Shown: positions 30,441 through 58,434 of the stretch, in pieces | How positions within the stretch are numbered: the first letter of the stretch is position 1 | How the letters are laid out: every line of letters begins with the position of its first letter | NCBI RefSeq assembly: GCF_018141525.1 | Contig: NZ_CP064655.1 | Location: 1,178,001-1,242,000, forward strand | Reading direction: 5' to 3' | DNA length: 64,000 bases | Source of the DNA: Miltoncostaea marina | Lineage (GTDB): Bacteria > Actinomycetota > Thermoleophilia > Miltoncostaeales > Miltoncostaeaceae | The notes under the pieces: model-generated | The model's input: the letters and a program-made list of their open reading frames with translations, nothing else | The model's database searches: none | What the model was told of the DNA's origin: nothing | Made by a program: the position numbers and the translations under genes

Positions 30441-32087
30441 ATGATCGAGACCGACACCACACCGACCCCCCTGCGCCTGGAGCCCCCCGGTCCGGGATCG
30501 TGGCTGCTGGACGCCGTCCATGCCCCGCGGCCCTACTCGCGCTTCGGTACCGAGATCCACCCCGGGGCCCTGGCCGAGGGGTTCGCCGTCATGGGGCGCC
30601 GCTACGGCCTGCTCCTCGACGTCCTCGACTGGCGGATGGTGCAGGGGTTCGCCTACTTCGCGCCGCGTCCCGTGCTGGACGAGGCCGAGCTGCCCCGGCG
30701 GTTCGCGGCGGCCGCGGAGGCCGTCGCCCGGCGCGTCTGGCGCGAGGACGTCGAGCGCTGGGAGCGGTGGGCGAAGCCGGCCTCCGTGCGGGCGCACCTC
30801 GCCCTCCAGCGCGTCGATCCCGCGCCGCTGTCGACGGACGGGCTGCTGGCGCACCTCCAGCGCGCCCGCGAGCACCAGCGAGCGATGATCGTCCAGCACC
30901 ACGTCTTCAACGGGGCGGCCCTCATCCCCGTGGGCGACTTCCTCGCGCACGCGGCGGAATGGACCGGCCTCCCGCCCGCCCGCGTCCTGGCGCTCGTGCG
31001 CGGCGCGGCGCCCGAGTCCGCCGGCAGCTCCCACGAGCTCGACCGGCTCGTGGCGGCCCTCGCCGCCGACGGCCGGGCGCGGGCGGCGCTGGCGAGCGAC
31101 GAGGAGCCGGGCGCCCTCCTGGCCCGGCTGCGCGCATGGCCGGGCGGCGTCGGGCACGCCGCGACGGCATACCTCGACCTGGTCGGCTACCGGCTCGTGG
31201 ACAGCCTCGACATCGGCGACCGCTACGCCCTCGAGGTGCCCGAGGTGATCGTGGGGCGCCTGCGCGTCGCGGTGGCCGGCGGGAGGCCGGTGGGCGGCCC
31301 CTCGCAGGAGGAGGTCGCCGGAGTCCGGGACCTCGTCCCGCCCTCCTGTCGGGACGAATTCGACGACCTCCTCGCCGAGGCCCGGCTCACGTACCGGGTG
31401 CGCGACGAGCGCGGCAACTTCGGCGAGGTCTGGGCCGGGGGCATCACCCGGCGGGTCGTCCTGGCCGCGGGCGAGCGCCTGGTGCGGGCCGGCGTCCTGG
31501 ACGAGCCGACCCAGCTCGCGGAGGCCGGGTACGAGGAGATGCGCGACCTGATCTCCGGCCGCGGCGGCCCCACCGCCGACGAGCTGGCGGCGCGCGCCCG
31601 CTTCCGGGCGACGCACCGCGCCGCGGACCTGCCGCCGTTCCTCGGCGATCCGCCCCCTCCGCCGCCGCCGCTCGACCGCGTGCCCGCGGCCGCCGCGCGC
31701 ATGATGCGGGCCCTCGACGCCTCCATCGCGGCGCTGTTCATGCCGTCGGACGCCGAGAGCGAGGCCCGGGTCGTGCGGGGCACCGGCGCCAGCCCCGGCG
31801 TGGCCGTCGGCGTCGCCCGCGTGCTGTCCGGGCCCGCCGAGCTCGGCCGGCTGCGCACCGGTGACATCCTCGTGACCGGGTCGACGACCGAGTCGTTCAA
31901 CATCGCCCTCCCCCTGGTCGGCGCGATCGTGACCGACGCCGGCGGCATCCTCTCCCACGCGGCCATCGTCAGCCGCGAGTACGGCATCCCCGGGGTCGTC
32001 GGCACGCGCGACGCGACGGTGCTCATCCCCGACGGCGCGCGCGTGCGCGTGGACGGCGCCGCCGGAGAGGTCGAGGTGCTCTCGTGA
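30441..32087 (+). CDS. PEP-utilising enzyme, phosphohistidine (swivelling) domain subunit
   Basis: A 548-residue protein. Its C-terminal 90 residues are the mobile PEP-utilisers domain with the phospho-acceptor His506 in GGILSHAAIVSREYGIPGV. The preceding 400 residues are mostly helical and resemble the substrate-side region of PEP-synthase-like phosphotransferases rather than a PEP/pyruvate TIM barrel. The ATP-grasp domain needed to phosphorylate His506 is absent but is encoded by the next gene, which overlaps by GTGA. The pair therefore resembles a split PEP-synthase-like kinase (compare phenylphosphate synthase subunits or rifampin phosphotransferase). Substrate unknown. Confidence 0.78.
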   Translation: MIETDTTPTPLRLEPPGPGSWLLDAVHAPRPYSRFGTEIHPGALAEGFAVMGRRYGLLLDVLDWRMVQGFAYFAPRPVLDEAELPRRFAAAAEAVARRVWREDVERWERWAKPASVRAHLALQRVDPAPLSTDGLLAHLQRAREHQRAMIVQHHVFNGAALIPVGDFLAHAAEWTGLPPARVLALVRGAAPESAGSSHELDRLVAALAADGRARAALASDEEPGALLARLRAWPGGVGHAATAYLDLVGYRLVDSLDIGDRYALEVPEVIVGRLRVAVAGGRPVGGPSQEEVAGVRDLVPPSCRDEFDDLLAEARLTYRVRDERGNFGEVWAGGITRRVVLAAGERLVRAGVLDEPTQLAEAGYEEMRDLISGRGGPTADELAARARFRATHRAADLPPFLGDPPPPPPPLDRVPAAAARMMRALDASIAALFMPSDAESEARVVRGTGASPGVAVGVARVLSGPAELGRLRTGDILVTGSTTESFNIALPLVGAIVTDAGGILSHAAIVSREYGIPGVVGTRDATVLIPDGARVRVDGAAGEVEVLS

Positions 32088-32911
32088 CCTGGGCACTGCT
32101 CGCCGACGCCGCCGAGGCCACGCGCTTCGGCGGCAAGGCCGCCGGCCTCGCGCGGGCGATCCGCGCGGGGCTGCCGGTGCCCGCCGGGGTCGCGGTCGCC
32201 TGGCCGGCCGCCGACGCCGTGGGCGCCGGGGACCCCGCCGCCGAGGCGGAGCTACGATCCCTGCCGCTGCTGCGCGAGGCACGCGACGGCCTGGCCGTCC
32301 GCTCCTCGGCGGTCGGCGAGGACGGCGGGCGCACGAGCTTCGCCGGTCAGCACGAGACGTTGCTCAACGTGACCTCCGACAGCATCGTCGAGGCGGTCCG
32401 GCAGGTGTGGCGCTCGGGGCGCTCGGACGCCGCCCGGGCCTACCGGCGCCGGCTGGGCGTCGGGGGACCGGCCCGCATGGGCGTCGTCGTCCAGCAGCTC
32501 GTGCGCGCCGACGTCGCAGGCGTCCTCTTCACCCGCGATCCGATCGACGGCTCCGACGAGCTGCTCGTCGAGTCGAGCTGGGGGTTCGGCGAGGTGGTGG
32601 TGAACGGGCGGGTGATCCCCGACCGGCACCGCCTCAGCTCCTCGGGCACCGTGCTGGAGGCGGCCGCGGGGCGCAAGGACGTCGCCCTGCGCGCGACCCC
32701 CGGCGGGGGGCGCGCCGAGGTCGCCGTGCACGGGGGCGCCGTGGGCGCCCTCTGCCTGCAGGAGTCGCACCTCGCAGAGCTCCACGAGCTCGCCGTGCGC
32801 TGCGAGGCGGCCTTCGGCCCGGGCCAGGACATCGAGTGGGCCCTCGCGGACGGCGCCGTCCACCTGCTCCAGGTCCGCCCCCTCACGACCGTCGGGGGCG
32901 CGCGCCGCTGA
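32084..32911 (+). CDS. PEP synthase/PPDK-type ATP-grasp subunit
   Basis: A 275-residue protein equal to the N-terminal nucleotide-binding domain of PEP synthase. Conserved blocks are FGGKAAGLARAI (catalytic Lys near 18), LAVRSSAVGEDG, SFAGQHETLLNV, GVLFTRDPI, SSWGFGE and the C-terminal DIEWALADGAVHLLQVRP. It starts at GTG 32084 in the stop codon of the His-domain gene, so a 1:1 complex is likely. It would transfer a phosphoryl group from ATP to His506 of the partner. It is shorter than usual (about 330 residues). Confidence 0.82.
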   Translation: MTWALLADAAEATRFGGKAAGLARAIRAGLPVPAGVAVAWPAADAVGAGDPAAEAELRSLPLLREARDGLAVRSSAVGEDGGRTSFAGQHETLLNVTSDSIVEAVRQVWRSGRSDAARAYRRRLGVGGPARMGVVVQQLVRADVAGVLFTRDPIDGSDELLVESSWGFGEVVVNGRVIPDRHRLSSSGTVLEAAAGRKDVALRATPGGGRAEVAVHGGAVGALCLQESHLAELHELAVRCEAAFGPGQDIEWALADGAVHLLQVRPLTTVGGARR

Positions 32912-37616: not shown

Positions 37617-39728
37617 TCACGTCGCCGGCACGGGATGCGGCCGCGGCGCGGCGTCCGCCTCCATCGGCGCCGGCCGCAGGTCCACCCGGCGCAGCAGCTG
37701 GGCGTTGAGGGCGACGACGATCGTCGAGACGCTCATCAGGATCGCCGCCACGGCGGGCGGCATCGAGACCCCCGCCCATTCCAGGGCGCCGGCGGCGATC
37801 GGGATCGCCACGATGTTGTAGCCCGCCGCCCACCAGAGGTTCTGGAGGCTGGTGCGGTACGCGGCCGCCGAGAGCCTGATGGTGCTGACCACCGCGCGCG
37901 GGTCGGAGCTCGCCAGGATGAGGCCCGCCGACTCGATGGCGACGTCGGTGCCGGCGCCGATGGCGATGCCGACGTCGGCGCCCGCCAGGGCCGGCGCGTC
38001 GTTGACGCCGTCGCCCACCATGGCCACGCTCAGGCCGCGCGCCTGGAGCTCGGCGACCTTCGCGGCCTTGTGCTCGGGGAGCACCTCGGCGAACACCTCG
38101 TCGAGGCCGAGGTCGGCGCCGACGGCGTCGGCCACCTCGCGGGCGTCGCCGGTGATCATGACGACCCGTCGGCCCATGGCCTGGAGCTCCTCGACCGCGG
38201 CGCGGGCCTCAGGGCGCACCTCGTCCTCGAGGGCCAGGCCGCCGACGATCCGGTCGCCGCGCACGAGGTGGAGCACCGCTGCGCCGCGGTCCCGCCAGCC
38301 CTGCGCCCACCCGGCGATCCCCTCCGGCTCGCGGAGGCCGCGCTCGCGCAGCAGGGCCGGCCCGCCGACCGCGTGCGGGACGCCCTCGATGTCGGCCTCG
38401 ACGCCGCGGCCGGTGATCGAGCGGAAGCCCTCCGCCGTCGCGATCGGCCCGCGCTCGCGCGCCGCCGCCACGATCGCGCGGGCGAGCGGGTGCTCGCTGT
38501 CCGACTCCACGCCGGCCGCCAGGCGCAGCACCTCGTCCTCGTCGAGGCCGGCGCCCGCCACGCCCACGACGGCGTGGCGCCCCCTCGTGAGCGTCCCGGT
38601 CTTGTCGAACAGGACCGCGTCGACGGTGCGGCTGCGCTCCAGGGCGAGGCGCTCCCGCACGAGGATGCCGTGGCTCGCCGCGCGGGCCGAGGAGATCGAC
38701 GTGGTCAGGGGGATGGCCAGGCCGAGCGCGTGGGGGCACGAGATGACGAGCACGGTGACCACCCGCACGACCGCGTCGTCGGCGTCGCCGACGGCCAGCC
38801 ACACCCCGGCGGCGATCACCGCGGCGGCCATCGCCACGTAGAAGAGGAGCGCCGCGGCGCGGTCGGCCAGCACCTGGGCGCGCGAGCGCGACGCCTGCGC
38901 ATCGGCCACGAGCCGCTGGATGCCGGCGAGGGCGGTGTCCTCGCCGAGGGCATCGACCCGCACGCGGATCGCCGAGTCGGTGGAGACCGTCCCGGCGACC
39001 ACCCGGTCGCCGGCCGCCTTCGCGACCGGCCGGGACTCGCCGGTGATCATCGACTCGTCCAGCTCGGCGGCGCCGTCGGTGATCTCGCCGTCGGCGGGCA
39101 CCCGGGCGCCGCTGCGCACCAGCACGACGTCGCCGGCGCGCAGCGCGTCGAGCGCGATCGTCTCGACCCCGCCGTCCGGGCTGACCCGCTCGGCCTCGTC
39201 GGGCAGCAGCGCGGCGAGGGCCGCGAGGGCGTCCTGCGCCTGTCCGAGCGCCTTCATCTCCTGCCAGTGCCCCAGCAGCATGATGGTCACCAGCAGCGCC
39301 AGCTCCCACCAGAAATCGAGGCCGAACAGGTCCAGCGAGGTGGCCATCGAGGCGACGTAGGCGACGCTGATCGCCATCGCGATCAGCAGCATCATCCCCG
39401 GCCGACGCTCGCGGGCCTCGCGCCAGCCGCCCTCGAGGAACGGCCAGCCGCCCCACCAGAAGATCACCGAGCCGAGCACCGGGCCGACCAGCTCGATGCC
39501 GGCGACGTCCAGGTCGTAGCCGAACCAGTCCATGACCATGTGGCTCGTGAACACGACCGGGATGCTCAGCAGCAGGCTCCACCAGAACCTGCGGCGGAAC
39601 ATCGCCACGTCGTGGCCGGCGTGCTTGTCGTGGCCGGCGTGCCGGTCGTGCCCGCCGCGGGCGGCGTGCCCGCCGGCGTGGCCCGTCTCGTGCGCGTGAT
39701 CGGCCTCGGCCGGGTGGTGGGTCGCCAC
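37617..39728 (-). CDS. copB: CopB-type copper/silver P1B-ATPase
   Basis: A 703-residue heavy-metal exporting ATPase from GTG 39728, preceded by GGAGGAGCGAT. The N-terminus is a histidine-rich metal-binding tail (repeated GHD and HAGH units), not a CXXC domain. The membrane metal site is CPH (SCPHALGLA), the CopB signature. P-type motifs are MITGES, phosphorylated DKTGTLT, SEHPLAR and [10 protein letters not shown]. It would pump copper or silver out of the cytoplasm. A palindromic operator candidate lies 72-88 bases upstream. No CsoR gene is present in the window. Confidence 0.92.
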   Translation of the reverse strand: MATHHPAEADHAHETGHAGGHAARGGHDRHAGHDKHAGHDVAMFRRRFWWSLLLSIPVVFTSHMVMDWFGYDLDVAGIELVGPVLGSVIFWWGGWPFLEGGWREARERRPGMMLLIAMAISVAYVASMATSLDLFGLDFWWELALLVTIMLLGHWQEMKALGQAQDALAALAALLPDEAERVSPDGGVETIALDALRAGDVVLVRSGARVPADGEITDGAAELDESMITGESRPVAKAAGDRVVAGTVSTDSAIRVRVDALGEDTALAGIQRLVADAQASRSRAQVLADRAAALLFYVAMAAAVIAAGVWLAVGDADDAVVRVVTVLVISCPHALGLAIPLTTSISSARAASHGILVRERLALERSRTVDAVLFDKTGTLTRGRHAVVGVAGAGLDEDEVLRLAAGVESDSEHPLARAIVAAARERGPIATAEGFRSITGRGVEADIEGVPHAVGGPALLRERGLREPEGIAGWAQGWRDRGAAVLHLVRGDRIVGGLALEDEVRPEARAAVEELQAMGRRVVMITGDAREVADAVGADLGLDEVFAEVLPEHKAAKVAELQARGLSVAMVGDGVNDAPALAGADVGIAIGAGTDVAIESAGLILASSDPRAVVSTIRLSAAAYRTSLQNLWWAAGYNIVAIPIAAGALEWAGVSMPPAVAAILMSVSTIVVALNAQLLRRVDLRPAPMEADAAPRPHPVPAT

Positions 39729-39799
39729 TGATCGCTCCTCCCATGAGCACCGCCTGGACGCCGCCGGCGCTGCCGGAGGCGTCCCGTGATGCCGGCAAT

Positions 39800-39816
39800 A
39801 TACTCGGGGGGAGTAT
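39800..39816. promoter_or_regulatory. CsoR-style palindromic operator candidate
   Basis: ATACTC-GGGGG-GAGTAT, a perfect 6-bp interrupted palindrome with a G-rich centre in the promoter region of the copper ATPase. It resembles the pseudo-palindromes bound by Cu(I)-sensing CsoR/RicR repressors. The flanking 39729-40043 stretch shows no gene. Confidence 0.5.
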
Positions 39817-40069
39817 CTACGTCCAGCGGCGCCGAGCGCCCGCGACGGCCCTCGGGCGCCGTGCCGCGTCCGGTTTCGCGCGGCACGCCGCGGGAACCTG
39901 CGGGCCGTGCCGCCCGCCGCATCCGTCCGTCGCGACCGCGCCGGCGCCGCTGAATCCGAACGCCGGATCGCGTGCGTATGGAGGTCCGACAGCCATCGCC
40001 GCGCCGCGTACCGCGGGCCCGGCCGGGAGGAGGACCGACGCCGATGGACGGACAGGGGGAGGGGGCACG

Positions 40070-41077
40070 CTGACCACCGCCGCACGCCCTGAGGGCGCCG
40101 TCGTCGCGCCGCCCGGCCGCGCGGCGACGCTCCTCGCGGCCTGCGAGCGGCGGCTCGAGGCGGTCGTCGCGGCGGGGCACCCGGCCGTGGCCGGGCCGGC
40201 GCGGGCGACGCTCGCCTCGGGCGGCAAGCGCACGCGCCCGCGCATGGTCCTGGCCTGCGCCGGCCCGGCGCCCGGCCGCGCCCATGGCGTCGTCGCGGCC
40301 GCGGCGGCCGTGGAGCTCATGCACATGGCGACGCTCGTGCACGACGACGTCATCGACGGCGCCCCGCTGCGGCGCGGCCGGCCGAGCGTCGTCGGCGCCC
40401 ACGGCCGCGGTCGCGCGGTCGCGGTCGGCGACGTCCTGATGGCCGCGGCGTTCCGCGAGGCGGCGCGCCTCTGCGACCCCGCGGCGGTGCGGGTGCTCGC
40501 GCGCGCGACCGACGAGCTGACCCGCGGCGAGCTGCTGCAGGCGGCGGGCCGCGGCGACGTGGGGCTGGGGGAGGAGATCTACGTGGAGCGCTGCCTGCTC
40601 AAGACCGGCGCCCTGCTGGCGGCGGCGTGCCACCTCGGCGCGCTCGCGGGCGGGGCCCCGCCCGAGGCCCGGCGGCGGCTGGCCGCGTTCGGCCGCCACC
40701 TCGGCGTGGCCTACCAGATCGTGGACGACGTCCTCGACCTGACCGGCGACGCCGCCGTCACCGGCAAGCCGCGCGGCGCCGACCTGGCCGACGGCACGAT
40801 GACCCTGCCCGTCATCCTCGCCCTGCGGCTGGACCCCTGGCTGGGCCCGGCCGTGCGCGCCGCCGCCGGCGACGCGGGCGTGCGCGCCCGGCTCTGCGAC
40901 GAGCTCGCCGCGCACGCCGGCACCCGGGCGGCCGCGGAGCGCGCGGCGGAGCACGCCGACGCGGCGCACGCGGCGCTGGACGACCTGGCGCACGACGCCG
41001 ACGCCGCGGCGCTGCGCGCGCTGGCGTCGCGGGTGCTCGCGCGCGCGGACGCGGTGGCCGTGAGGGCGGTCGCGTGA
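40070..41077 (+). CDS. crtE: Polyprenyl (geranylgeranyl) diphosphate synthase
   Basis: Head-to-tail isoprenyl diphosphate synthase supplying the C20 precursor for the carotenoid genes that follow. Both aspartate-rich motifs are present: DDVIDGAPLRRGRPS and DDVLDLTG, plus SGGKRTRPRM. About 335 residues are coded from 40070. The start is uncertain: no ATG/GTG/TTG lies in frame near it, only CTG 40070 after a GGGGGAGGGGG stretch. An ATG at 40044 with a good GGGAGGAGG site would join this frame if one G were added in that run. It overlaps crtI by GTGA. Confidence 0.85.
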   Translation: MTTAARPEGAVVAPPGRAATLLAACERRLEAVVAAGHPAVAGPARATLASGGKRTRPRMVLACAGPAPGRAHGVVAAAAAVELMHMATLVHDDVIDGAPLRRGRPSVVGAHGRGRAVAVGDVLMAAAFREAARLCDPAAVRVLARATDELTRGELLQAAGRGDVGLGEEIYVERCLLKTGALLAAACHLGALAGGAPPEARRRLAAFGRHLGVAYQIVDDVLDLTGDAAVTGKPRGADLADGTMTLPVILALRLDPWLGPAVRAAAGDAGVRARLCDELAAHAGTRAAAERAAEHADAAHAALDDLAHDADAAALRALASRVLARADAVAVRAVA

Positions 41078-48757: not shown

Positions 48758-50989
<2,232 letters not shown>

Positions 50990-51430: not shown

Positions 51431-54229
51431 CTACGGGACCGCGGTCGGCGCCGCGGCGCCGGGGGCGGGCCGCGGCAGGCGCCGCCGGCGCAGGGCGTCG
51501 GCGGCGTACACCAGCGGCGGGAATGCCGCCAGCATGGCCAGCGACCCGGCGCTCGGCACCGCCGTGCCGAAGAGGGGCTGCAGCGGCGGGAGCCCGACAA
51601 GCGCGATCGCGAGGACGACCTCGAGGATGATCCCCCAGACGAGCAGGCGGTTGGAGCGCAGCGGCGGCCGCGTGCGGGCCCCGTCCTCGACCCGCGACGC
51701 CATGGCGGTCCCGATCTGGCAGGCGACGATGCCGAGGAAGGTCATCGTCGTGGCGCGCAGGTAGGCCTCGTGGAGCGGCGCGCCGTCGCCGGTCGGGTCG
51801 CCCGGGCTCCAGCCGGCGGCGAGCAGCTCGGCGACGAAGCCCGCCATGACGAGCGCCGCCGAGACGATGCCCATGCCGCCCCACGCGCGCCGCAGCAGCG
51901 CCCGGTCCACCAGGCGGGCGGTCCGCGCCCGCGGCGGCCGGTCCATGACGTCGCGCTCCGCGCGCTCGCGGCCGAGGGCCAGCGCCGGCACGGTCTCGGT
52001 GCCGAGGTCGATCGCCAGCAGCTGCATCACGGTCAGCGGCAGCGGGATCGCCCCGCCCGAGAGCGCGAAGGCCAGGAACGGCAGCACCTCGGGCGGGGCG
52101 TGGGCGAAGATGTAGAGGATGAAGCGGCGCACGTTGGCGTAGACGCGACGCCCCTCCTCGATCGCGGCGACGACCGTCGCGAAGTCGTCGTCGGTGAGGA
52201 TCATCGTGGCCGCCTCGCGGGCCACATCGGTGCCCGAGCGGCCCATGGCCACCCCGATGTCGGCGTGGCGCAGCGCCGGGGCGTCGTTGACCCCGTCGCC
52301 GGTCATGGCGACGACCGCCCCGTGGGCGCGCAGGTGCTCGGCGATGCGCAGCTTCGCCTCGGGCTCGGCCCTGGCGAAGATCAGGCCGTCGGGCTGCCGC
52401 AGCAGCGCCGAGAGCGCCGCGTCGTCCATGGCCGACAGCTCGGGCCCGGCGACGACGCGGGGCGCGTCGCGCACGATGCCCACCTCGCGCGCGATGGCCG
52501 CCGCTGTGACCCCGTTGTCGCCCGTGACGACGACGATCGCGATGCCGGCGCGGCGGCACCGCGCCACGGCGTCCGGCACCGCCGGCCGGGGCGGGTCGTG
52601 CATCGCCACGAGCCCGATCAGGCAGAGGTCGCGCTCGGCCGCGTCGGCGGCCGACGGCGCCGCCTCGCCCGCCCCGAGCGGCCGGTCCGCCACCGCGAGC
52701 ACCCGCAGCCCGCGGGCGGCGAGGCCCTCCACCTGCGCCGACACGGCCGCGCGCTCGGCGGCGCCGAGGGGCCGCTCGGCGTCCTCCGCGTCGGCGATCC
52801 GGGTCGCGCGCGCGAGCAGCGCCTCGGGCGCGCCCTTCGCGGTCACGCGCAGCCGGCCGGCGGCGTCCTCGTCGACCGTCGCCATCATCCGCCGGGCGGG
52901 GTGGAAGTGGAACAGCCGCCGCCGGCGGGCCTCCCGCGCGACCGGGTCGACGCCGGCGCCGAGGGCGGCCGCCGCCTCGAGCATCGCCACCTCGGTCGGG
53001 TCGCCGGTCGCCCCGCCGGGGCTCCCCAGGTCGGCGTTGGCGCAGGCGGCGATGGCCGCGCCGAGCCGCGAGGCGGTGAGCCCGGGGGCCGCCGGGGGTG
53101 GCCCGTCGAGCCCGGCCGGCCCGGCGAGGGTCCACGCGGCGACGGGCCGCATGCGGTTGAGGGTGAGCGTGCCGGTCTTGTCGGTGCAGATCACGGTCGC
53201 GGCGCCGAGCGTCTCGACGGCCGACAGGCGCTTGACGAGCGCGCCGCGGCGGCTCAGCGTGCGCACGCACACCGCGAGCGCGAGCGTGATGGTGGGCAGG
53301 AGCCCCTCGGGCACGTTGGCCACGAGCAGCCCGATCGCGAAGCGCAGGGCGTCGTCGGCCGGCAGCCCCGCCGCGAGCCAGCCCAGCCCGAGGAACGCCG
53401 CGCCCATCGCCACGGCCACCAGCGCGATGATCCAGGCCGCCCGCTTCACCTCGCGCTCGAGCGGGCTCATCTCGCGCCGCCCGCGCTGCGAGAGCGCCGC
53501 GATGCGGCCGAGCTCCGTGCGCATCCCCGTGGCGCGCACGACCGCCACGGCCTCGCCGGCCGTGCAGAGGGTGCCGCTGAACACGCGCTCCTGCGCCTCG
53601 AGGGGCGACGTGTGGCCGTCCTCGCGGTCGGCCGCGCGGGTGACGGGGGCGGCCTCGCCCGTGAGCGCCGACATGTCGACCTCGACCTCGCCGGACACGA
53701 GCCGGGCGTCCGCCGACACGCGCTCGCCCTCGGTGAGCAGCAGCACGTCGCCCGGCACGAGGTCGCGCGCGGCGATCGCCCGCACCCGGCCGTCGCGGCG
53801 GACCGTCGCCTGCGCCGGCAGGTAGCCGCGCAGGGCGTCCACCGCCCGCTCGGCCTGGCGCTCCTGCGCGAAGGCCACCACCGCGTTCAGCACGACGACC
53901 GCGGCGATGGCGAGGGCGAGGACCGGCGTGCCGCTGAGCGCGGCGAGCCCCGCCGCCGCCCAGAGCAGGAGCGCGAGCGGGTGGACGACCTGGTCGAGGA
54001 TCTCCCGCGGCCACGGCGCCCGCCGGCTGCGCACCAGCTCGTTGGGCCCGTGCGCGGCCAGCCGGCGGGCCGCCTCGGCCGAGCCCAGGCCGGACTCCGA
54101 CGAGCGCAGGTCGCGGAAGGCCCGCGCGACGGCGGTCAGCCCGGCGCCGGGCGCCGCCGCCCCCGCGTCCGGCTCGTCCGTCGCGCCCGCGCGCCGTCCG
54201 GGGCGGGTGGCTCGTGGTGCGGCCGTGAC
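51431..54229 (-). CDS. P-type cation ATPase with Na,K-ATPase-like (P2C) motifs
   Basis: A P2-family cation pump of about 930 residues with ten hydrophobic helices. Motifs are ALTGEAAPV, phosphorylated DKTGTLT (near 53170) and [10 protein letters not shown]. Helix 4 reads [11 protein letters not shown] (near 53310) and helix 6 reads [14 protein letters not shown] followed by [14 protein letters not shown] (near 51990), closer to Na,K-ATPase alpha than to calcium pumps. The start codon is unclear: after AGGAGG (54231-54238) the frame begins GTC at 54229, with no ATG/GTG/TTG before the transport core. The ion is unknown; Na+ or K+ is inferred. Confidence 0.82.
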
Positions 54230-54388
54230 GGTCCTCCTGCGCGTGGTGCCGGGCTCGCCCCCCAGTCTCCGGCCGCCGTGGCGGCGGCCGCATCGGGGCG
54301 CATGCGGTGCGCGGTTGCGGTCGACCCCGGAGGCGCCGGGGGCGCGGGATCGCGGCGAGCGGCGCGCGGGCGATGCCGATGCGGGCGG

Positions 54389-54826
54389 GTGCTCCTCGCC
54401 CAGGGGGTGCTCGTGGCCGGGGCGGCGATCTGCCACTTCGGCGTGCGCGGGCCGACCCGGTCGAGCCTCGCCCCGACGCAGCGGAACGCGCGCGACGTGG
54501 TGGCCGTGGAGCGGGCCCTCGGCATCGCCCTGGGAGGGCGGGCCCAGGACCTGATCACCGGCCACGGCGCGGCCGTGCGGGCGGTGAACGCGGTGTTCAT
54601 CTCCGGGCACCGGCCCGTGATCGCCCTCACGCTCGGCTGGCTCCCGGCCACCCGCAGCCGGCCCCTCCGGCCCGCCGCGGTCGTCCCGCCGGTGGCGATG
54701 CCCCTCGCGGTCGTGGCGACGGCGGACCGCCACACGCTCGACGTGCTCGCCGGCGGCGTGGTGGCGCCGGACCGCGCGCCCGCTACCCGCGGCCCTCGAG
54801 CAGGCCCGCGTCCAGGGCGACCCTGA
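54389..54826 (+). pseudogene. PAP2-superfamily (Aur1/Ipt1-like) gene lacking its core
   Basis: The frame from GTG 54389 matches the two ends of the PAP2_3 family. The N-terminal part has [30 protein letters not shown] and [15 protein letters not shown]. It jumps directly to [20 protein letters not shown], the C-terminal helix with the second phosphatase histidine. The middle helices and the MPSLH catalytic motif are missing, so the product cannot be active. A possible upstream start is ATG 54302. The tail runs 44 bases into the convergent regulator gene. Confidence 0.5.
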
Positions 54827-55424
54827 CCAGCCCCGCGCGGGTGGTCACCCGGAGCTTCGTCATCAGGTGGGCGCGGTGGCTCTCGACCGTCCGGGCGCTC
54901 ACGACGAGGGCCTCGGCGATCTCCTGGTTGGTGTGCCCGAGGGCCAGCAGGCGCAGCACCTCGCGCTCGCGGTCGGTCAGGTCGACCAGCGGCCCGTCCG
55001 CGGACGGGCCGGCCAGCGCGGCGCCGAGGGCGGGGTGCACGTAGCGCTCGCCGGCCGCCACGGCGCGGATCGCCCGCACCAGCTCCTCGTCGGCCGCCGA
55101 CTTGAGCAGGTAGCCGTCGGCGCCGGCGTCGAACGCGCGCCGGACGTCGCGCGCCTGGTCGTGCATGGAGAGGAACAGGATCCTCGTGCCGGGGGCGCGG
55201 CGCCGGATCTCCCTGGCGCCCTCCAGCCCGCCCATGCCCGGCATCTCGACGTCCATGACGACCACGTCCGGCCGCAGCCGGGGCAGCGCGCGCACCGCGT
55301 CCTCCGCCGTCGCGGCGTCGCCGACCGCCACCACGTCCGCCTCGCGCTCCAGCAGCAGGCGCAGGCCGGCCCGCAGCACGGCGTGGTCGTCGACCAGCAG
55401 GATCCGCACCGGCGGGCCGCTCAC
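54783..55424 (-). CDS. NarL/LuxR-type response regulator
   Basis: A 213-residue intact regulator from GTG 55424. The receiver shows [12 protein letters not shown], phospho-Asp in [10 protein letters not shown], Ser in FLSMHD and Lys in GYLLKSA. The LuxR helix-turn-helix starts at [17 protein letters not shown]. Its start overlaps the end of a decayed histidine kinase reading frame (GTGA), the usual kinase-regulator junction, but that kinase looks non-functional. It may therefore be an orphan driven by another kinase. Confidence 0.9.
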
Positions 55425-55935: not shown

Positions 55936-58323
55936 TCAGCGCACCACCCTGCGCCGCGGCGCCCGGCCCGCCGGCTGGCGGGGCTCCGGCAGCGGCGGGG
56001 CCGGGGGGATGGGCCGGACGGCGGCCCGCTCGAGCCGGACGGGCTCGCCCCAGTGCTCGATGTCCATCGGGCCGTCGCCCGGATCGAGCCGGTAGCGCGC
56101 CTCGCCCGGCAGCACCTCGACGACGAGCCGGCGGCCGCGGAAGACGACCGGGAAGGCGAGCCGCGAGAGGGCCGCCGGCAGCCGGGGCCGGAACGCCAGC
56201 CCCGCGGGGGTGCGCCGCAGTCCGGCCAGCCCGGCGATCGCGGCCAGCAGCCCCCCGGCGAGCGAGGCCATGTGGAGGCCGGCGCCGATGTCGCCCGCCA
56301 GGTCCTCCAGGTCGCTCAGCGCGGCCTCGCGCAGGTAGTCGTAGGCGAGCTCCGTGTGGCCCACCTCGGCGGCGACGATCGCCTGCATCGAGGCCGACAG
56401 CGGGGAGTCGCGCACCGTCAGCTCCTCGTAGTACTCGAAGGCGCGGCGCGCGCCCTCCGCGCCGAAGGCGCCCGGGCAGGTGAAGACGGCCATCACGAGG
56501 TCCGCCTGCTTCACGACCTGGCGGCGGTACAGCTCGATGGAGTGCCGCCCCGCGTGCAGCGGGTACTCGTCGGGCGCGGTGCGCGCGAAGTCCCAGCGCT
56601 CGAGGTCGGTGGAGCCGGCGCTCTGCTGGTGCACGCCCCGTCGGGCGTCGTAGGGCAGGGCCATCGCCGCCGCCGCCCGCCGCCAGGCGGCCACCTCGTC
56701 CGCGTCGACGCCCAGCGCCGCCGCGATCGCGGGGTGTCGCTCGGACGCGTCGGCGGCGAACCGCATGTTGTCGCGGGCCATGAGGTTGGTGTAGGCGTTG
56801 TCGTCCTCGAGCGCGGAGTACTCGTCGGGGCCGGTCACGCGCTCGATGTGGAACCGCCCGTCCTCGCCGTGGTGGCCGTACCCGGCCCACAGGCGCGCCG
56901 TCTCGACGAGCAGCTCGACGCCCGCCTCGCGCTCGAACTCCTCGTCGAGCGTCACGTCGGCGTAGAGGGCCACCGCCCGCGCGATGTCGGCGTTCAGGTG
57001 GAGCGCGGCCGTCGCCGCCGGCCAGTAGTCGGAGCACTCCGCGCCGTCGATCGTGCGCCACGGGAAGACCGCGCCCGACAGGCCCAGCCGGCGCGCGCGC
57101 CGGCGCGCCGCGCCGAGCGTCGAGTGCCGCCAGCGCAGCGCGTCGCGCGCGACGTGCGGCTGCGAGTAGGCGAGGACGGGCAGGACGTAGGCCTCCGTGT
57201 CCCAGAACACGTGCCCGTCGTGCGCGGGGCCGGTGAGGCCCGTGGCCGCGATCGCCCGGGCGTCGGTCCCGGTCGCCGCCTGCACGAGCTGGAACTGCGC
57301 GAAGCGCAGCGCCCGCGCGAGCTCCGGGTCGCCGTCGACGTCGAGCCGCGTGCGCCGCCAGTACGCGTGCAGGTCGTCGGCCTGCATCCGGGCCAGGCCG
57401 TCGAAGCCCTCGGCCAGCGCGTTCTGCAGGCTCGCGTCGACCTGGTCGCGCAGCCACTCGACCGACTCGTCCGCCGACCAGTGGTAGGCCAGCAGCTTCA
57501 CCAGCCGCAGCGGCCTGCCGGGCGTGAGCATCGCGGAGAGCGTCACCCGGCCCAGGTCGGGCTCGCAGGTGGTGCGCGTGAGCGGCGCGGACTCCGACTC
57601 GACGACGTGGTCCATGCCGGCCGCCAGCGACAGCCCGCTGCGCGCGGTCGTGTGCGCGAGCACCACGCGCAGGTCGTCGAGGGCGCTGAGGCGCGGGACC
57701 AGCACCGGCCCCGCCGCGCCGCGGCCGGCGCCCCCCTCGTCCAGCGGGTTGGCCAGCAGGTTCGACTGCAGCGCGATCCGCGACGGGGCGCCGAGCGCCT
57801 CGACCTCGTAGCTGATCGCCGCGACGCTGTGCATGCGCAGCGACACCAGCCGGCGGGTGGTGACGCGCACCGGCCGGCCGGTGCGCGTGGTCCACACCAG
57901 CTCGCGCGTGAGCTGCCCGGTGCGCATGTCCAGCGAGCGCTCGTGCCGCTCCAGCCGGCCGCTCGAGACGTCGAGCGGCTCGTCCTCGACCAGCAGGCGG
58001 ATGAGCTTGCCGTCGGTCACGTTCACGATGAACTGGTCGGCCTCGCGGCAGCGGCGGTCCGGCGCGGCCCGCGCGGGGGGCAGCGTCTCGTGGAAGCCGT
58101 TGAGGTACGTGCCGGCGATCGCCCGCGGCTCGCCCTCGTCGAGGTTGCCGCGCAGGCCGAGGTGGCCGTTGGCGAGGGCGAAGACCGACTCGGCGAGGCC
58201 CAGGCGGCGCGGGTCGAGCGCCGGCTCGCGGACGATCCAGGGGCCGTCGGCGTCCCAGATCGGCGCCGGGCGGCCCGCGGCGGCGGGGCGGGCGCCCGCC
58301 CCGGTCTCGGTCGCGGCCCTCAT
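55936..58323 (-). CDS. Glycoside hydrolase family 65 disaccharide phosphorylase
   Basis: A 795-residue cytoplasmic GH65 enzyme (start ATG 58323; ATG 58359 is possible). The N-terminal beta-sandwich begins WIVREPALDPRRLGLAES and NGHLGLRGNLDEGE. The (alpha/alpha)6 barrel has FWDTEAYVLPVL and the general acid Glu in VTGPDEYSALEDDNAYTN. These enzymes phosphorolyse maltose, trehalose, kojibiose or related alpha-glucosides to beta-glucose-1-phosphate; the exact sugar is not readable. No beta-phosphoglucomutase is adjacent. Confidence 0.88.
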   Translation of the reverse strand: MRAATETGAGARPAAAGRPAPIWDADGPWIVREPALDPRRLGLAESVFALANGHLGLRGNLDEGEPRAIAGTYLNGFHETLPPARAAPDRRCREADQFIVNVTDGKLIRLLVEDEPLDVSSGRLERHERSLDMRTGQLTRELVWTTRTGRPVRVTTRRLVSLRMHSVAAISYEVEALGAPSRIALQSNLLANPLDEGGAGRGAAGPVLVPRLSALDDLRVVLAHTTARSGLSLAAGMDHVVESESAPLTRTTCEPDLGRVTLSAMLTPGRPLRLVKLLAYHWSADESVEWLRDQVDASLQNALAEGFDGLARMQADDLHAYWRRTRLDVDGDPELARALRFAQFQLVQAATGTDARAIAATGLTGPAHDGHVFWDTEAYVLPVLAYSQPHVARDALRWRHSTLGAARRRARRLGLSGAVFPWRTIDGAECSDYWPAATAALHLNADIARAVALYADVTLDEEFEREAGVELLVETARLWAGYGHHGEDGRFHIERVTGPDEYSALEDDNAYTNLMARDNMRFAADASERHPAIAAALGVDADEVAAWRRAAAAMALPYDARRGVHQQSAGSTDLERWDFARTAPDEYPLHAGRHSIELYRRQVVKQADLVMAVFTCPGAFGAEGARRAFEYYEELTVRDSPLSASMQAIVAAEVGHTELAYDYLREAALSDLEDLAGDIGAGLHMASLAGGLLAAIAGLAGLRRTPAGLAFRPRLPAALSRLAFPVVFRGRRLVVEVLPGEARYRLDPGDGPMDIEHWGEPVRLERAAVRPIPPAPPLPEPRQPAGRAPRRRVVR

Positions 58324-58434
58324 GGCCCGACGATGCGGCCCCGCCGGTGCGGTTGCCATCCGGGCGGGCCCGCCCGCCGCCGCGCCGGCGCCGCAGCGAC
58401 GTTGCGGGGACCCCGCGGCGCGCCCCGGTCGCCC

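Follow-up and report, generated by a model that had tools for sequence, protein, structure and literature searches.

The minus-strand frame at 51431–54229 of the window (the whole 64,000-nucleotide stretch of Miltoncostaea marina DNA analyzed here) codes for a P-type ATPase, P0001, that by phylogeny belongs to the P2C (Na,K/H,K-ATPase) branch and not to the calcium-pump branch. Judged by its place in the trees it is a P2C-like ATPase, and judged by its ion-site residues it is neither a Na,K- nor an H,K-ATPase: a histidine occupies the position at which both animal H,K-ATPases carry a lysine, and a longer acidic residue takes the usual aspartate position of helix 6. The reading that we rate highest, tentatively and at somewhat under an even chance, is that P0001 would be a P2C pump of reduced stoichiometry, most likely exchanging one H+ (second choice Na+) per K+.

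The gene and its place among P2-type ATPases

P0001 is, from its motifs and domains, a real open reading frame and a complete P2-type ATPase. The Pfam set is whole (Cation_ATPase_N, E1-E2_ATPase, Hydrolase, Cation_ATPase and Cation_ATPase_C), and the protein has the DKTGT phosphorylation motif (53168–53182, minus strand; D350, equivalent to Na,K D369), the N- and C-terminal cation ATPase domains and the PEGL of helix 4 that are expected of this type; its AlphaFold2 model has a mean pLDDT of 89.5. An earlier, sequence-only reading had delimited the gene at 51431–54229, of which the frame and its stop codon (51431–51433) stand, giving 932 amino acids as read from 54229; the codon at 54229, on the other hand, is GTC and not a start codon. 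The nearest in-frame candidate upstream is GTG 54436, the next one downstream, GTG 54034, falls within the N-terminal domain, and no in-frame ATG, GTG or TTG lies between them. An AGGAGG is found just 5′ of the GTC codon (54229–54238). The quoted motifs of helix 4 (VANVPEGLL, 53297–53323; E308 at 53306–53308 aligns with Na,K E327) and helix 6 (51971–52012; D741, T744 and E745 align with D804, T807 and D808) are both present on the minus strand, the P2C-like character attributed to these helices is borne out, and the second helix-6 acid is indeed Glu instead of Asp (E745, codon GAG at 51995–51997). The -M-RPPR run that had been counted as a further Na,K mark is not diagnostic, since rabbit SERCA1 has DIMDRPPR at the same place. 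The lack of a β subunit, claimed for this region, extends to the entire 3.37 Mb genome, in which PF00287 has no match at E ≤ 10, and the SYGQ/E assembly motif was not found in P0001.

Scores alone make a weak case for the P2C branch. Over aligned columns, P0001 shares 33.6% identity with pig Na,K α1, 30.9% with SERCA1 and 31.7% with SPCA1, and the gap between Na,K α1 and the calcium pumps is therefore small, as it is between the nearest solved sequence, a Na,K α (444.7 bits), and the Listeria calcium pump (432.3). Among NCBIfam models, the PMR1 calcium model scores 490 and the IIC model 480.5, both below cut-off; for the latter, TIGR01106 (P2C), the curated cut-off is 946.1 bits, and seven other bacterial family members also fall short of it (500.9–637.4 bits). 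Na,K or H,K chains fill all of the first 39 Foldseek rows for P0001, and VIA-align gives Z values of 39.1 for SPCA1 and 38.6 for the gastric H,K pump, with no separation of P2C from P2A by whole-protein match. A relative whose Na,K-like helix 5 is intact (L107) matches H,K/Na,K chains at 560 bits and the Listeria pump at 478, and a bacterial P2A protein (L018) does the opposite, scoring 614 against SPCA1 and no more than 421 against Na,K.

The trees place P0001 on the P2C side. A helix 5–6 search of named genomes yielded at least 520 relatives from Actinomycetota, Nitrospirota, Pseudomonadota, Chloroflexota, Bacillota and other phyla, of which 80 loci were kept; loci without a single ORF holding both DKTGT and GDG[IV]ND were dropped, the short matches L039, L046 and L061 were excluded, and near-copies and others (24 names) were removed ahead of a 79-row tree, while dereplication at 80% identity reduced 149 rows to 112, two animal rows included. 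All trees come from a quick search with SH-aLRT support only and were built without archaeal, protist, eukaryotic P2B or P2D proteins and without LMCA1. When phylogeny within the P2 ATPases, the check proposed in the sequence-only reading, was run on 79 rows with 22 ion-site columns removed, the P2A/P2C split received an SH-aLRT of 100, with SERCA, SPCA1 and 11 bacterial rows bearing Asn at the D804 position on the P2A side, and Na,K α, the H,K row and 64 bacterial rows bearing Asp there, P0001 included, on the P2C side. P0001 carries D741 in place of this Asn, which is found in 13/13 P2A-side rows, the rows having been chosen by it. Within the P2C side P0001 sits in an actinobacterial clade with support 100, and does so again in a 115-row tree, where the clade has 24 rows. 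Forcing it among nine P2A rows of a 27-row set costs 156 log-likelihood units (p-AU 7e-50). Together, the split and the p-AU value therefore dispose of a position inside the P2A calcium-pump clade, the one result that had been named in advance as overturning a P2C assignment. From these trees, P0001 is a member of a widespread β-less bacterial P2C-like family. Animal Na,K α falls inside this bacterial family in the 115-row tree, beside Nitrospirota and Pseudomonadota rows (support 100, long branch), and animal P2C proteins fall outside it in the 79-row tree (support 87).

Ion-site residues and their co-variation

The Na,K-ATPase-type ion site that had been proposed for this protein holds up in part. 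Against pig α1 (P0001 residue in parentheses), E327 (E308), Y771 (Y706), E779 (E714), D804 (D741), T807 (T744), Q923 (Q838) and E954 (E870) are kept. The changes comprise S775 (H710) and N776 (A711) in helix 5, which the sequence-only reading had not addressed and which aligns without gaps (52088–52114, minus strand; H710 at 52100–52102), D808 (E745) in helix 6, W924 (I839), D926 (T841) and C930 (S845), the helix-8 residues Q838, I839 and T841 being coded at 51692–51724 on the minus strand; T774 is Ala. Where the 3Na:2K pump has S775, N776, T774, D808, D926 and W924, P0001 thus has H, A, A, E, T and I, with the acid of site III lost, and the candidacy of P0001 as a Na,K-ATPase proper fails at site residues of helices 5, 6 and 8. 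Across the bacterial family, the helix-4 Glu is present in 147/147 rows, Y771 and Q923 are invariant and E779 is kept in 146 of 147, while W924 and D926 occur in 0/147, rows with Ser at 775 included. Since the site III residues are absent family-wide (147/147), their loss does not set the His clade apart.

The changed residues invite comparison with the gastric (ATP4A) and non-gastric (ATP12A) H,K-ATPases. In the portions of the literature considered here, position 775 is the site of the Lys in both H,K-ATPases (PMC9463140, PMC8481561), gastric K791 and non-gastric K794 being equivalent to Na,K S775 (PMC9463140). P0001 resembles these pumps in having a residue capable of being basic at 775 and, at site III, I839 at the Trp924 position and T841 for D926, a pattern in line with the H,K type by sequence. 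It differs from them in its His instead of Lys, on which its candidacy as an H,K-ATPase proper falls, in its Glu808, in lacking Asp926, in having Ser for Arg930 and in having Val where the gastric pump has its helix-8 Glu; the non-gastric pump, for its part, pairs its Lys with the equivalent of D808 (PMC9463140). The bacterial clade is separate, and the likeness is therefore one of convergence and not of membership: as far as aligned residues go, the combination in P0001 follows the logic of the H,K-ATPases more closely, without placing it in that animal subgroup.

Other known systems frame P0001 in a similar way. With animal Na,K α (P2C, TIGR01106) it shares, besides the kept site residues, its side of the P2 tree and the motifs VANVPEGLL and IDLGT, and it differs in the six substitutions above and in having neither SYGQ/E nor a β subunit. 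These last two absences it shares with the prokaryotic α-like proteins described in the available parts of PMC9609216 (group I) and PMC10654040 (methanogen P2C). The methanogen proteins keep all Na+/K+ site residues (PMC10654040); the bacterial family, in contrast, has lost site III throughout, and P0001 has its site I rebuilt around His. The Artemia Na,K α2KK (8k1l) likewise has site residues turned into basic side chains, with a reduced stoichiometry (PMC10812997), but it is an animal Na+ pump with lysines in helices 4 and 5, and both the residue and its partner are different in P0001. Listeria LMCA1 and SERCA/SPCA (P2A) share the overall fold and the cytoplasmic motifs with P0001; SERCA and SPCA stand on the other branch, whose P2A rows carry Asn in place of D804, LMCA1 itself being absent from the trees.

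Positions 775, 776 and 808 do not vary freely. Among 110 dereplicated bacterial rows, the states at these three positions are SND (55), HAE (17), HLE (15), DND (10) and HAD (6), followed by the rarer HND (4), HTD, HTE and HLD (1 each). E808 is accompanied by H775 in 33/33 rows, and never by N776, and thus appears to need His (41/41 E808 rows among all 147 rows without dereplication), and the 65 rows without His at 775 all combine N776 with D808. Since 12 of the 45 His rows retain D808, Glu808 is not obligatory with His. The His/Glu pair recurs across several clades, HAE and HLE needing at least 6 and 7 changes, respectively, on the starred branches of the 115-row tree. A correlated-evolution (Pagel-type) test of H775 and E808 gave an LRT of 32.8 (p 1.3e-6), with a gain rate of zero for E808 without His, and this LRT exceeds those of 44/44 control columns of similar frequency, the highest of which was 30.1. 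When 121 states around helices 4, 5, 6, 8 and 9 were scanned, the top two were Thr809 (33.5) and E808 (32.8), followed mostly by positions in or around helices 5, 6 and 8; in a wider column scan, the best LRT among 131 of the 254 states in the first half of a 509-state list was 21.8. An independent-pairs sign test never reached 0.05, with a median of at most 5 informative pairs, none of them contrary.

In a third variant of the family, Asp replaces S775 (YHL[TS]DNVAE ... LD[IL][GV]TD), which adds an extra acid to the pocket; it is carried by L015, L016, L176, L178, L180–L185 and L188, or 10 rows after dereplication. At two loci, a His-type (DLGTE) pump is encoded next to a Ser-type (DLGTD) one on the same strand, 15 bases apart in one case (L162:3968-9598) and about 1.5 kb apart in the other (L149:3310-10478).

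Gene context in the window and in relatives

Directly upstream of P0001 lies a gene for a LuxR-family response regulator (54783–55424, minus strand; Pfam Response_reg and GerE), followed by a GH65 disaccharide phosphorylase/hydrolase-like gene (55936–58359, minus strand; Pfam GH65 N, m and C), and on the other side an FtsH-like AAA/M41 protease gene is convergent with it (48758–50989, plus strand; Pfam AAA and Peptidase_M41). About 20 kb from P0001, domain matches identify a PEP-utilizer and PPDK_N pair (30441–32911, plus strand); PPDK belongs to the Streptomyces OsdR regulon (PMC5069765). The window holds a second P-type ATPase gene (37620–40085), near genes for a DUF305 protein, an OmpR-type response regulator and a histidine kinase. 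The single-contig genome has 13 E1-E2 ATPase matches, six of which cluster within about 83 kb (genome positions 487325–569846), far from the window.

Among relatives of the direct clade whose loci span 10 kb of DNA or more, USP, CBS or HSP20 genes lie within a flank of up to 6 kb in 20/23 cases vs. 7/38 for the other family loci, in a comparison whose seeds were drawn from the clade itself and whose other loci come mostly from other phyla; within Actinomycetota only, the counts are 19 of 22 and 2 of 7. The relative in Mycobacterium gastri (L065) is surrounded by nitroreductase, HSP20, PfkB, USP and response-regulator genes, and one on a Rhodococcus plasmid lies among USP, response-regulator, GAF, trehalose, wax-ester and NiFe-hydrogenase genes. 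By analogy, these two neighborhoods resemble the Streptomyces OsdR and Mycobacterium DevR regulons as presented in the sections considered of PMC5069765, a paper in whose text a word count finds no instance of ‘ATPase.’ A family relative on the mobilizable Lactiplantibacillus plantarum plasmid pEM1 (L191) adjoins glycogen-synthesis genes.

Transport mode, rival explanations and significance

By sequence, P0001 retains the site II ligands (helix-4 Glu, E779 and D804), the residues of the sodium-only site III are gone (T774A, W924I and D926T), and site I has His at the S775 position together with N776A and D808E. In the proposed mechanism, this His/Glu pair would fill site I, and the cycle would then be of reduced stoichiometry and near-electroneutral, with one H+ (second choice one Na+) moving out and one K+ moving in via site II. 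Several points from the sections considered of two papers bear on this proposal. Lys at 775 forms salt bridges to helix-6 carboxylates, in the gastric pump the helix-8 Glu diverts the second acid, and the authors predict strict selectivity for H+ only where site III is lost and site I holds a tethered cation (PMC9463140); one ion bound at site II can be enough to set off phosphorylation (PMC10812997). P0001 appears to fit the H+-selectivity pattern of PMC9463140, with Val for the gastric Glu, no site III, His775 and the longer acid Glu808, and it is from this pattern that we infer H+/K+ exchange. Against this reading, the residue is His and not Lys, and near neutral pH His may be uncharged; it could then resemble the inactive Na,K-ATPase mutants in which S777 is replaced by a bulky neutral residue (PMC10812997). 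Judging by the gene neighbors of its relatives, P0001 would probably be used under low-oxygen or dormancy stress.

A sodium pump (Na+/K+ or Na+-only), in which His would merely tune affinity or stoichiometry, for example to 1–2 Na+ per K+, would agree with the P2C side of the tree and with the retention of E327, E779, D804, Q923 and E954, and it has a precedent in the brine-shrimp Na,K-ATPase, whose helices 4 and 5 carry lysines and which still pumps Na+ at a reduced ratio of 2:1 (PMC10812997). However, S775, N776, T774, W924 and D926 are all altered, and Trp924 has been argued to be necessary for the Na+-selective site III (PMC9463140, in the portion considered), which leaves this explanation unlikely. 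From the site residues, a proton- or single-ion-exchanging pump is more likely than a classical sodium pump. Transport of a divalent or transition metal (Mn2+, Ca2+, Mg2+ or other), with His and the acids as ligands, is rather unlikely: a His/Glu/Asp/Glu pocket would, we infer, suit such metals, NRAMP and MgtC genes occur close to one plasmid relative and a heavy-metal P-type ATPase close to another, and the PMR1 model scores slightly above the IIC model, but neither model reaches its cut-off, P0001 lies outside P2A and has D804 in helix 6 where P2A rows have Asn, and stress genes are the commonest neighbors among those looked for. Highly improbable is an ordinary bacterial P2A calcium pump with Na,K-like motifs by chance, for which identities only 2–3 points apart and tied VIA-align Z values would leave room; the split at SH-aLRT 100, obtained with the site columns removed, and the p-AU of 7e-50 against such a placement speak otherwise. 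The preferred reading, held tentatively, is that of a P2C pump of reduced stoichiometry, with H+ for K+ as its likeliest exchange. A broader version, in which bacteria would repeatedly have turned P2C pumps into H+/K+ exchangers by the animal H,K route (a cation at 775 and D808E), with a pH-switchable His and within actinobacterial hypoxia/dormancy gene sets, is doubtful.

Prokaryotic relatives of the sodium pump without a β subunit are already in print (PMC9609216, PMC10654040), and the role of the archaeal ones is described as an open question in the part of PMC10654040 considered; the His/Glu (775/808) variant was not mentioned in the literature searched, with subscription papers outside its scope. 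The family offers natural variants (Ser, His and Asp at 775) at a residue believed to set whether Na+ or H+ is transported, and these variants come with matched partners and even as side-by-side Ser/His paralogues. They make the prediction set out in PMC9463140, that loss of site III together with a tethered cation leads to H+ selectivity, testable in proteins that are apparently independent of a β subunit. If the stress-gene context is functional, the family would also bring an ATP-driven ion pump into bacterial dormancy.
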